Origin: Brachyspira sp.
Lineage (GTDB): Bacteria > Spirochaetota > Brachyspiria > Brachyspirales > Brachyspiraceae
Assembly: GCF_029258575.1 (NCBI RefSeq)
Contig: NZ_JARHYI010000004.1
Span: forward strand, 1 to 47,339
DNA: 47,339 nt
Direction of reading: 5' to 3'
A program made the translations under genes and the position numbers. The notes beneath the pieces are model-generated. The model ran no database searches. It saw only the letters and a list, made by a program, of their open reading frames with translations, and was not told the DNA's origin. Below, piece after piece: positions 27,120 through 32,882 of the stretch (position 1 is the first letter of the stretch; every line of letters starts with the position of its first letter).

Positions 27120-28633
<1,514 letters not shown>

Positions 28634-29221: not shown

Positions 29222-29962
29222 TTGGAAAACATCATAGATATAATTAATAAAGCTCAGTTAAAAACAATAGATAAAGAAACATTTCTATCAATATCATCAT
29301 TGTGTTCTTTTATTCCAAAATCTATAACAGAAAATAATGTTTGGAAGAAACTGCCTTTATCAGCTAAAGAAGTATATAGAACTTTAGTTGCCAATTATGA
29401 CTATGAACTTGGAATTGCAAAAACTACACATTCGCAAATATTGAATGAAGCTGGTATAGGAGGAAATGCTACTGTAGTAAAATCTATAGATCTATTAGAA
29501 GAAAAGGGATTTATTACTAGAGTAGAATCTAAAACTAAAAGCCATCATTATCTTATGCCATATCAGGAAAAATTTTATGCGGCTGTATGCAATTTTGAAG
29601 AGAGAGATTTCTCTATACTCTATAAAGTAAATAAAAAAAATAAAAAAGATAATCAAATTAAGCAAGTTACTAATAAACTTTTCTTTAAAGTTTGTTATAA
29701 TTTAAGTTGTTTAGGTATAGATGAACCTCAAAAATTAATAGATAAATATTCTTCAGATGGTAATCAGCTTAGAGTGATTTTATCTATGTGTAATTATATT
29801 TATATAGCTAAAGAGAATAATTTAAATAAAGACATAAATTTAAATAAATACCTTATAGATTCATTAAAAAAAGGAAATATTACAGAAAACATATTTGATG
29901 AAAAAACAATGAATACTATAAAAAATATAATAATAAACAGAAAACAAAATATAACAGAGTAA
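29222..29962 (+). CDS. Winged-helix DNA-binding protein, 246 aa
   Basis: The TTG start at 29222 is preceded by GGAG at a 7-base distance. Residues about 40-105 form a winged helix like those of replication-initiator and HTH_36 proteins: LPLSAKEVYRTLVANYDYE, TTHSQILNEAGIGGNATVVKSIDLLEEKGFI (recognition helix and wing), TRVESKTKSHHY. The remainder is helical and lysine-rich. It could be a regulator or a DnaD/Rep-like helper; I cannot decide. It lies 4 bases before the large LysM protein gene, so the two are co-expressed, which makes a nucleoid or chromosome-related job plausible. Confidence 0.75.
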   Translation: MENIIDIINKAQLKTIDKETFLSISSLCSFIPKSITENNVWKKLPLSAKEVYRTLVANYDYELGIAKTTHSQILNEAGIGGNATVVKSIDLLEEKGFITRVESKTKSHHYLMPYQEKFYAAVCNFEERDFSILYKVNKKNKKDNQIKQVTNKLFFKVCYNLSCLGIDEPQKLIDKYSSDGNQLRVILSMCNYIYIAKENNLNKDINLNKYLIDSLKKGNITENIFDEKTMNTIKNIIINRKQNITE

Positions 29963-29966
29963 AACT

Positions 29967-32501
29967 ATGGCAACAAAAAAAACTAACACAACAAATAAAA
30001 AAGAAGAATCTAAAGAAACAAAGAAAACAGCTGCTACTCCTAAAAAGACCACAGCTAAAAAAACAGCTGCTACTGAAAAAGCTGAAACTCCTAAAAAGTC
30101 TACAGCTAAAAAAACAGCTGCTACTGAAAAAGCTGAAACTCCTAAAAAGTCTACAGCTAAAAAAACAGCTGCTACTGAAAAAGCTGAAACTCCTAAAAAG
30201 ACCACAGCTAAAAAAACAGCTACTACTGAAAAAGCTGAAACTCCTAAAAAGACCACAGCTAAAAAAACAGCTACTACTGAAAAAGCTGAAACTCCTAAAA
30301 AGTCTACAGCTAAAAAAACAGCTGCTACTGAAAAAGCTGAAACTCCTAAAAAGTCTACGGCTAAGAAAACTACTGCTACTGAAAAAGCCATAGAAACACC
30401 AGTAATTGATGAAAAAATAGAGGAAAAAGATACAAAAATAGAAACTAAATCATTAGATTCTGTAGTGAAAAAAGAAGAGCAGCCAAAAGAAGAAAAAAAG
30501 GATTTAAAAGAACTTATAAAAGAGGCTACTGCTGATAAAAAAACTTCTGACAGAAAAAGTATATTTAAAACTTCAGCTCCTGTTAGAAAGATTGAATCAA
30601 TAAAAACAGAAAATACTGAAAATAAAACTGAAAGAGAGTCTATAACTCTTCTTAAAGAGGCTATAAAAGCTAAATCTCAAAATGTATCAAGACCTGTAAG
30701 CGTAAAAAAGCGTATAGCCATAGTAGATGATGACAGCGTTGATAATATAAGCAATAAAAGTAATGAGGAGTTAAATATATCTAAACCTGTTATAAGCAGT
30801 GTATTCGCAGCTCATAATATAAGAGATGAAAAAAAAGAAATTACAGCAGATGAAAATATAAAAAATGATAATATAAATAAACCAGAAGAAGAAAATAATA
30901 CATTAAACAGAGAAAATACAACATCTTCAATAGTTAATGCTGAAACTTCTTCCCCTTATTCTTTTGAAACTTTCAAAAAAGAGGATAATACTGAAGAAAC
31001 TATCACAGAGGAAAAACAAGAAGATGAAATAACTGAAAAAACAGAAAATAATTATGAAACTTCTGATAATAATATAAATAATTTTGAAACAAAAGAAGAA
31101 ATAAAAACAGAAGAAACTATCACAGAAGAAAAACAGTATAGCGAAGAAAAAACATCTGAAGAAACTGTCAATGAAAAAATAGAGGAAAAGGCTGAAGAGA
31201 AAATCGAAGAAGAAAAACCAGCAGAAGAAAAAGCCACATACAGTAAAAGCGATATATTTAAAAGACCTGTTGTAATACCTATTGAAGATGAACATATTCA
31301 GAAAACTAAATTCCAACAGGAAAATATTGATAAAGCTATAAAAGATGCTCCTACTATTCCTGATAATATTTCTATAGAAAATTATAAAGATTATTCTAAT
31401 ACAGAATTAAGCAATGAAAATGAAGAAGAAATAAATGAAAAAATACAGGAATTAAAAGATAAAGAAATAAAAATAATAGAAACAGAAGATGAATTAAAAA
31501 GTGCTTCTTTACCAGAAATAGAAAAGAAACCTGCAGAGCGGTATGTTGCTCTTGATCATTCTGTAAATGAAAATAAAAAATCTAATAAAATAGTACCTAT
31601 AGTAGGAATTATAATAATAATATTAGGACTATCATTTTTAGGTATTCAATTCTTCTCAGGAAAAAATAATCAATCTGATGATGGATTCTATGAAATAGTT
31701 ACAAATGAAACTGTAGAAAATAATAATTTGTTAAACACTAATGATCTTAAAACAAATAATATTATATCTCCTACAAACACAAAACCACAAACCAATAATA
31801 CTGCAGTAAATACTCAAACTAATACAGTAAAACCGCAAACTAATAATACTGCAGTAAATACTCAAACTAATACAGTAAAACCACAAACTAATAATGCTAC
31901 AATAAATACTCAAACTAATACAGTAAAACCGCAAACTAATAATACTGCAGTAAATACTCAAACTAATACAGTAAAACCGCAAACTAATAATACTACAGTA
32001 AAACCTCAGACTAACAATACTGTAGCAAATACAAAAACCAATACAGCAGCTACAGTACCTACTCCTCCAACGCCTCCAAAATCACCAGAAATAACACCGC
32101 CTACTCCTCCAACACCTCCACCTAATCCACCAGTTGCTAATACAAATGCCTCTATAAATAACACTCAGAAAAATACAGCATTATCATACAATACGGATAC
32201 ATATAAAACTAAATGGACAGATACTTTATCATCAATAGCAACCAAAGAATTAGGAGATGGTAGAAGATGGCCTTCTATAGTCGTTCTAAATGAGAATATA
32301 ATAAATAATCCAGATAACATAGTATTTAATATTGATATCAAAATCCCGAAGGGAGAAAAAAAAAAAGTTGAGGATATGAACGATAGTGAAAAAAAATCAT
32401 TATATAATGATTATATAAAAGTGTCTGAAATGTATTTAAAAATGGGAAAACAAAATATTGCTAATACAATGAAATCTCAAGCTAATTCTATATTAAAATA
32501 A
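29967..32501 (+). CDS. Histone H1-like/transmembrane/LysM protein, 844 aa
   Basis: The architecture is unusual. Residues 1-140 are basic: after a Lys/Thr start come six near-identical 17-residue units (K-T-A-A-T-E-K-A-E-T-P-K-K-S-T-A-K), which resemble bacterial histone H1-like tails. An acidic, glutamate-rich region follows to about 530, then a single membrane helix (IVPIVGIIIIILGLSFLGI, about 542-562). Outside the membrane lie an N/T/Q-rich repeat (four 16-residue units), a proline-rich spacer and a C-terminal LysM domain (TKWTDTLSSIATKELGDGR to IKIPKG, about 745-795) that binds peptidoglycan, then a helical tail. The N-terminus would be cytoplasmic (positive) and LysM periplasmic. The function is unknown; a link between DNA and the cell wall is an inference. 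It follows the winged-helix gene by 4 bases. Confidence 0.85.
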   Translation: MATKKTNTTNKKEESKETKKTAATPKKTTAKKTAATEKAETPKKSTAKKTAATEKAETPKKSTAKKTAATEKAETPKKTTAKKTATTEKAETPKKTTAKKTATTEKAETPKKSTAKKTAATEKAETPKKSTAKKTTATEKAIETPVIDEKIEEKDTKIETKSLDSVVKKEEQPKEEKKDLKELIKEATADKKTSDRKSIFKTSAPVRKIESIKTENTENKTERESITLLKEAIKAKSQNVSRPVSVKKRIAIVDDDSVDNISNKSNEELNISKPVISSVFAAHNIRDEKKEITADENIKNDNINKPEEENNTLNRENTTSSIVNAETSSPYSFETFKKEDNTEETITEEKQEDEITEKTENNYETSDNNINNFETKEEIKTEETITEEKQYSEEKTSEETVNEKIEEKAEEKIEEEKPAEEKATYSKSDIFKRPVVIPIEDEHIQKTKFQQENIDKAIKDAPTIPDNISIENYKDYSNTELSNENEEEINEKIQELKDKEIKIIETEDELKSASLPEIEKKPAERYVALDHSVNENKKSNKIVPIVGIIIIILGLSFLGIQFFSGKNNQSDDGFYEIVTNETVENNNLLNTNDLKTNNIISPTNTKPQTNNTAVNTQTNTVKPQTNNTAVNTQTNTVKPQTNNATINTQTNTVKPQTNNTAVNTQTNTVKPQTNNTTVKPQTNNTVANTKTNTAATVPTPPTPPKSPEITPPTPPTPPPNPPVANTNASINNTQKNTALSYNTDTYKTKWTDTLSSIATKELGDGRRWPSIVVLNENIINNPDNIVFNIDIKIPKGEKKKVEDMNDSEKKSLYNDYIKVSEMYLKMGKQNIANTMKSQANSILK
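30060..30365 (+). repeat. Six tandem 51-bp repeats in the LysM-protein gene
   Basis: Six units of 51 bases, each encoding a 17-residue Lys/Ala/Thr/Pro motif, are nearly identical in DNA, with a few changes (ACA/TCT, GCT/ACT). A partial unit precedes and a degenerate one follows. Copy number could change by slippage without breaking the frame. Confidence 0.9.
31782..31973 (+). repeat. Four tandem 48-bp repeats in the LysM-protein gene
   Basis: Four 48-base units encode K-P-Q-T-N-N-T-A-V-N-T-Q-T-N-T-V with few changes, followed by partial units. They form a polar, probably unstructured spacer between the membrane helix and LysM domain. Confidence 0.9.
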
Positions 32502-32507
32502 TCTAAA

Positions 32508-32882
32508 ATGAAAAAATCTAAAAAAAATAAAAACTCTATATTAACATTCTCATGTACAGGCTGCGGAATATGCTGTAAAGAAAAAGGATATGTTTTTTTT
32601 ACAGATGATGATATAAAAAGAGCATCCAAATTATTGGAAATATCCCCTTTATTTTTTATTAATCAATATTTAGAATATGAAGAAGGATATGGATATCATA
32701 TAAAAGTAACTGAAGATAAGCCTTGCACATTTTTAGATGAAAATAACAGATGTACTATAAATAATTCCAAACCTAATCAATGTGCTACATTTCCATATTG
32801 GAAGGAATATACTGATAAAAATGGTAATTTAATAGCGGGTAAATTTAATAGAGCATGTCCCGGAGTAAAAATAAAAAAATAA
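32508..32882 (+). CDS. YkgJ-family cysteine-cluster protein
   Basis: This small protein of 124 residues has the YkgJ/CxxCxxCC pattern: FSCTGCGICCKEKGY near the N-terminus, then CTFLDENNRCTIN and PNQCATFPYW, with a final cysteine in RACPGVK. The cysteines probably hold zinc or an iron-sulfur cluster. The family's role is not established. It starts 6 bases after the LysM-protein gene stop and belongs to the same transcription unit. Confidence 0.88.
   Translation: MKKSKKNKNSILTFSCTGCGICCKEKGYVFFTDDDIKRASKLLEISPLFFINQYLEYEEGYGYHIKVTEDKPCTFLDENNRCTINNSKPNQCATFPYWKEYTDKNGNLIAGKFNRACPGVKIKK

Follow-up and report, generated by a model that had tools for sequence, protein, structure and literature searches.

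A bitopic LysM protein with a lysine-rich cytoplasmic tail and a winged-helix partner gene in Brachyspira: a candidate link between nucleoid and cell wall

In this study, we closely examined two neighboring genes in a 47,339-nucleotide stretch of DNA from Brachyspira sp. (contig NZ_JARHYI010000004.1, positions 1 to 47,339), here called the window, whose coordinates are used throughout with features on the forward strand unless stated otherwise. Gene 1 (29222 to 29962, with a TTG start) encodes a protein of 246 amino acids with an initiator-like N-terminal winged helix-turn-helix (wHTH) domain and a helical C-terminal half, as assigned from the open reading frame (ORF), an AlphaFold2 (AF2) model, matches in the Protein Data Bank (PDB) and PHROGs families. 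Gene 2 (29967 to 32501) follows after a gap of 4 bases and encodes a protein of 844 amino acids, which according to its ORF, alignments and the AF2 model of an ortholog consists of a lysine-rich tail, an acidic arm, a single transmembrane (TM) helix, a linker, a LysM domain and a helical hairpin. The best-supported part of our interpretation is that the gene 2 product is bitopic, is anchored in the wall and extends a long arm into the cytoplasm. Tentatively, and with a confidence somewhat short of even, we favor the further reading that the basic tail of this wall anchor and its winged-helix partner contact the nucleoid. The strongest support for such a DNA-to-wall link comes by analogy from proteins of other spirochetes that combine an HU domain, a TM helix and a LysM domain.

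The original prediction had placed a winged-helix gene 4 bases before an 844-residue protein and had named conservation of the pair in Brachyspira as a check; both ORFs and their spacing were confirmed, and the pair is widely kept. Of 26 Brachyspira genomes, 24 carry both genes, among them every one of the 21 of good quality (completeness of 90% or more, contamination of 5% or less), and the two genes are adjacent wherever the contig permits, the locus of one genome being split by contig ends. Furthermore, the succession of wHTH gene, tail-TM-LysM gene and a gene for a CxxCxxCC protein recurs in two sister genera (three genomes). Across the 393 Spirochaetota genomes sampled, gene 1 was confined to the order to which Brachyspira belongs.

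The C-terminal LysM domain (32202 to 32354) was recognized by several independent means. NCBIfam PRK11198 matches the window protein with an E value of 1.3e-5, which lies under the curated cut-off, and 14 of 18 members match; Pfam LysM (PF01476) gave no match in the window protein. A profile of the domain matches Escherichia coli Kbp in the PDB (E 6e-4). In the ortholog model it adopts a beta-alpha-alpha-beta fold at a pLDDT of about 90 or more, for which Foldseek returned Kbp and the isolated LysM domain 5yz6 (TMt 0.79). The LysM fold claimed at the outset is thus borne out, and peptidoglycan binding by the protein is predicted from it. The domain is followed by a helical hairpin (32355 to 32498), seen in the AF2 model, whose first helix aligns in hhalign with the counterpart in the HU-TM-LysM proteins described below. 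This model was made on an ortholog from an alignment of only 18 sequences and is mostly disordered.

A single TM helix was located by hydropathy and as a modeled helix at about residues 542 to 563 (31590 to 31655); a 19-residue scan peaks at residue 542, and no second segment passes the cut-off. The helix is preceded by KKSNK and followed by DD, the pattern expected for a cytoplasmic N terminus and an outer C terminus, and this topology is the one predicted by the charge rule. An N-terminal signal sequence was not found in the gene 2 protein, which speaks against export of the N terminus and agrees with the earlier claim of one membrane helix and a cytoplasmic N terminus. Between helix and LysM lies an Asn/Thr/Gln/Pro-rich linker (31659 to 32198; Tandem Repeats Finder [TRF] and AF2), which is predicted to be periplasmic, is disordered in the model and contains a 48-bp repeat in 4.9 copies at 31781 to 32014 (TRF).

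Scanning with the gene 2 LysM profile led to proteins in other spirochetes that carry an N-terminal HU domain, a linker that is often acidic, one TM helix and a C-terminal LysM domain. They occur in Treponema (T. porcinum, T. parvum and rumen genomes) and several other families, and their HU domain is genuine, with PF00216 E values of 3e-13 to 6e-24. Immediately upstream, a small HU gene that overlaps by 4 to 32 bases was seen in 20 of the 21 distinct loci (the cassettes are at loci L117, L137, L151 to L159 and L163 to L175). Also, locus L114 of the sister family encodes a related protein in which one HU domain is clear and a second one apparently degenerate. The likeness to gene 2 thus comprises a cytoplasmic DNA-binding-type region, an acidic linker, a single TM helix, LysM plus helix and a small DNA-binding gene upstream; the difference is that an HU fold takes the place of the lysine-rich tail and an HU gene that of the wHTH gene. 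That other spirochetes hold such a pair with a true HU fold in the same place makes a DNA-to-wall link plausible. Burroughs et al. in 2017 reportedly described Bacteroidota HU-CCDC81/SPOR proteins with a predicted DNA-facing HU domain, a TM helix and a peptidoglycan-binding domain, for which a role in chromosome partition was proposed. These proteins have SPOR instead of LysM, and the window protein gave no match to HU (PF00216).

Brachyspira itself encodes a second bitopic protein with a degenerate HU-HU-TM-LysM layout, flanked by trxA and an NAD(P)HX-epimerase-like gene and weakly matching HU-CCDC81 (PF18175). It was found in the genome from which the window derives (L201:3332-5035, G000:C97) and at further loci (L189:3559-5385, L191, L192, L194, L195 and L196). 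All Brachyspira HU-fold matches that were read fall in this membrane protein. A search with PF00216 detected no standalone HU/IHF gene in any Brachyspira genome (G000 to G025), although the cut-off was passed by only 9 of the 14 genomes used as controls, and Brachyspira may still have a standalone HU that is very divergent. The notion that Brachyspira lacks the HU fold was rejected, as only the standalone gene went undetected.

Alignment of the two protein types (hhalign, A2 against A7) showed that LysM and the next helix are homologous over 88 columns (Prob 98, E 1.6e-13). A LysM tree built on 118 columns unites the tail proteins in a single clade (99/98), which clusters with small LysM lipoproteins and apart from the HU types; common descent of the LysM domains of both types to the exclusion of other LysM proteins was not upheld by this tree. 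Given separate clades on a short domain, the cautious reading is convergence, and the TM-LysM layout appears to have been built twice. Derivation of the window protein from an HU-TM-LysM protein by exchange of HU for the tail was rejected, because Brachyspira has both proteins and their LysM clades differ.

The Lys/Thr/Ala tail of gene 2 (residues 1 to 140, 29967 to 30388) was delimited by TRF, by the charge of its orthologs and by weak matches to hist_H1_lk_Burk and Hc2. It contains a tandem repeat of 51 bp (17 amino acids) in 7.2 copies at 30023 to 30388 with 95% matches (TRF). The six repeats counted earlier are therefore about seven units, of which six carry TPKK, a motif nearly private to the species of the window. 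The start of the protein, MATKKT, is conserved in the genus. Among 19 intact orthologs, the tail contains 24 to 37% Lys and has a net charge of +13 to +23 in its first 84 to 120 residues; its length and sequence drift, yet it is strongly basic in all 19. When 100-residue stretches of 303 ORFs of sampled Brachyspira DNA were ranked by charge, the top 17 positive ones were all orthologs of this tail.

The tail has no predicted fold in the AlphaFold model of the ortholog, and matches to H1 families stay below curated cut-offs: the scores were 30.9 bits against a cut-off of 135 and 29.4 against 80, both in one ortholog, and the window tail scored 18.6 bits against H1-like families (Hc2 and hist_H1_lk_Burk). 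With scores under the cut-offs and TPKK not conserved, the tail was rejected as a genuine H1/Hc2 homolog. The description of it as H1-like in the original prediction holds in that the tail is lysine-rich, disordered and repetitive, and fails in that the likeness is compositional. Frameshifts in gene 2 were seen in four genomes (G006, G009, G011 and G016; L061 5735-8124, L063 5854-8495, L071 5738-7860 and L077 5343-8255); two or more of these fall in A-rich codons of the tail, and in G016 gene 1 is frameshifted as well. Those in gene 2 may reflect homopolymer sequencing error, phase variation or real decay.

Precedents for such tails exist. A tail fragment of AlgP binds DNA in vitro, and the tail of PhaF is believed to link granules with the nucleoid (PMC9239181); Chlamydia Hc2 binds DNA, and its lysine-rich repeats vary (PMC2848022). 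Like gene 2, these proteins have a long, disordered, lysine-rich repeat tail of variable copy number; in contrast, they are not membrane or wall proteins, and their repeat unit differs. AlgP is also found in association with polyphosphate granules, whose spacing it sets (PMC9239181), so an H1-like tail may have a ligand other than DNA. The tail of gene 2, being a charge pattern without a predicted fold, could accordingly bind polyphosphate granules, RNA or anionic lipid and place granules or ribosomes instead of the chromosome, an explanation that we regard as very improbable, since the wHTH neighbor and the HU analogs point to DNA.

Outside the tail, gene 2 is conserved in blocks, which besides the MATKKT start, the TM helix and LysM comprise three cytoplasmic segments. 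The first (residues about 207 to 250, 30585 to 30716) reads RKIESIKT..ERESITLLKEAIKAKSQNVSRPVSVKKR in the window and IRKIEPIKT..ERESITLLKEAIKAKSKNVSKPV across the genus; it was identified by conservation, and a short helix is predicted in it, corresponding to residues 86 to 99 of the ortholog model at modest confidence. The second is the near-invariant motif TYSKSDIFK (residues 424 to 432, 31236 to 31262). The third is a juxtamembrane block, KDIKIIETEDELK..PEIEKKP..PY, ending in KKSNK (31440 to 31589), which was likewise found by conservation and is modeled as helices with moderate confidence. Between the 207-to-250 block and the membrane, the arm is strongly acidic in most members.

This pattern of conservation brings in the main rival explanation, a wall-anchored scaffold that has no role at the DNA. 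Its arm would recruit protein clients from division, flagella or filaments via short motifs, and the tail would be a spacer or generic electrostatic element. We judge this somewhat unlikely. In its favor, the conserved cytoplasmic parts are the three segments just described, the middle is strongly acidic as in HubP/FimV (PMC12918733), and MapZ of streptococci has the same order from inner N terminus to wall-facing end (PMC4931243). The scaffold leaves unexplained why a very basic tail is retained, why the wHTH neighbor is constant and why comparable proteins carry HU domains, and neither a TPR nor a FimV domain was found in gene 2 by Pfam or NCBIfam.

The comparison with these proteins also bears on novelty. 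HubP/FimV proteins have a peptidoglycan-binding periplasmic LysM, a single TM helix and a long cytoplasmic region that is acidic and disordered and varies in length (PMC12918733), and HubP serves as a polar anchor in the partition of chromosomes (PMC9140986). The window protein shares LysM, the single helix and the acidic disordered region; in HubP, however, LysM is N-terminal, a FimV/TPR domain ends the protein, and both the basic tail and a wHTH partner gene are missing. Membership in HubP/FimV was rejected on account of the opposite orientation and the lack of a FimV domain. MapZ consists of a cytoplasmic N-terminal domain, a single TM helix, a flexible linker and a wall-binding C-terminal part, and positions FtsZ (PMC4931243). 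The predicted cytoplasmic N terminus, one TM helix and wall-facing C terminus of the window protein resemble it; MapZ differs in having neither LysM nor a basic repeat tail, its sequence is unrelated, and no MapZ domains were detected in the window protein by Pfam or NCBIfam. Wall-anchored single-helix scaffolds that recruit via cytoplasmic arms are thus already known, and because HubP/FimV and MapZ are such proteins, the earlier statement that no system of this build had been described was too strong. The version with a polycationic tail and an initiator-like wHTH partner and the spirochete HU-TM-LysM cassettes appear to be undescribed, as no description of either was found in the literature searched.

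The gene 1 protein was modeled with a pLDDT of 82 and combines a winged helix with a C-terminal half made up of helices. In the model, the winged-helix domain (about residues 39 to 112, 29336 to 29557) is clear from its helices and wing, and its core, TH..I...GIG..AT.VK, is invariant throughout the order. Pfam support is weak (FUR, E 0.007). Structural matches in the PDB were almost all wHTH DNA-binding proteins, the best including a plasmid centromere-binding protein, Fur, MarR, CodY and a plasmid initiator, none with an E value <0.001. Furthermore, 14 of 17 members matched replication-initiation families in PHROGs with modest scores (best 1.7e-5). Identity to the window copy is 71 to 93% across the genus. 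A phage or plasmid origin of this wHTH was considered and rejected, since tblastn gave no plasmid or phage homolog.

In two genomes of a sister family (f2; L112 5593-8734 and L113 6272-9316), the wHTH gene is followed by a gene for a TPR-SLT lytic transglycosylase instead, and in L112 it lies just downstream of mraZ-, murE- and murF-like genes, which indicates that gene 1 tends to accompany wall genes. Together with the fact that small regulators are common beside their target genes, this would fit a wall-gene cluster with a local regulator, in which gene 1 is a transcription factor for the operon or envelope genes, gene 2 an accessory of peptidoglycan remodeling, and the two do not physically act together. 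We consider this improbable: regulators as a rule keep a looser tie to any single gene in different genera, conservation of gene 1 extends to its C-terminal half and the protein looks initiator-like rather than ligand-binding, and no enzyme domain was found in gene 2 by Pfam or NCBIfam.

Two observations concern the surroundings of the pair. Gene 3 (32508 to 32882) encodes the CxxCxxCC protein of 124 amino acids (PF03692, Pfam E 7e-12) and is a constant third cluster member in the Brachyspira loci read and in the three sister-genus genomes. On the opposite strand, just upstream of the pair, lies a 16S rRNA gene (27120 to 28633), and 16S-derived ORFs are also found near the pair in the sister-genus loci L109 and L110; no tRNA was detected in the window.

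We therefore return to the nucleoid-contacting wall anchor. LysM would fix the gene 2 protein to peptidoglycan, with one helix crossing the inner membrane, and the disordered cytoplasmic arm of about 540 residues would bring its terminal, H1-like polycationic tail into contact with the nucleoid. The winged-helix product of gene 1, which resembles replication initiators and would stem from the same transcript, would act as the partner that reads the sequence and may be bound by one of the conserved cytoplasmic motifs of gene 2; the two proteins would keep a part of the chromosome close to the wall. We infer DNA binding by tail and wHTH, contact between the two proteins and a positioning role; that the arm reaches DNA is suggested by tail charge, wHTH neighbor and HU analogs. 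Conservation of the pair, a tail that stays basic despite drift, the HU analogs, the initiator-like wHTH and the precedents for H1-like tails count in favor, as does the degenerate HU-HU-TM-LysM protein of Brachyspira in the absence of a detected standalone HU gene. Several points weigh against it. Cytoplasmic conservation is highest in short motifs outside the tail, and these would suit protein clients as well; the likeness to H1 is compositional and below cut-offs; the sister genera have tails of lesser length and regularity; polyphosphate, RNA or acidic lipid can also serve as ligands of basic tails; in f2 the wHTH gene has a transglycosylase gene as its neighbor; and the separate LysM clade makes the HU evidence an analogy, not homology of the cytoplasmic part. 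The DNA-to-wall anchoring system originally proposed is supported in part: HU analogs and a conserved pair favor the predicted wall-anchored, DNA-facing layout, and the conserved motifs outside the tail fit a scaffold equally.

To our knowledge, little is known about chromosome positioning and segregation in long, thin spirochetes, and a direct protein link from DNA to wall, if true, would be a simple mechanism for both. It is possible, though we propose it with considerable reserve, that spirochetes tether the nucleoid to peptidoglycan by bitopic proteins with a DNA binder, a TM helix and LysM, encoded behind small DNA-binding genes, and that this layout arose at least twice, as an HU type in Treponema and relatives and as an H1-tail type with a wHTH partner in Brachyspiraceae, with Brachyspira carrying both kinds of membrane protein and no standalone HU found. 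The HU-TM-LysM cassettes make the tether idea testable in cultivable Treponema besides Brachyspira. Should the tail prove not to bind DNA, the gene 2 protein would still be a genus-wide wall-anchored cytoplasmic scaffold that is apparently undescribed.

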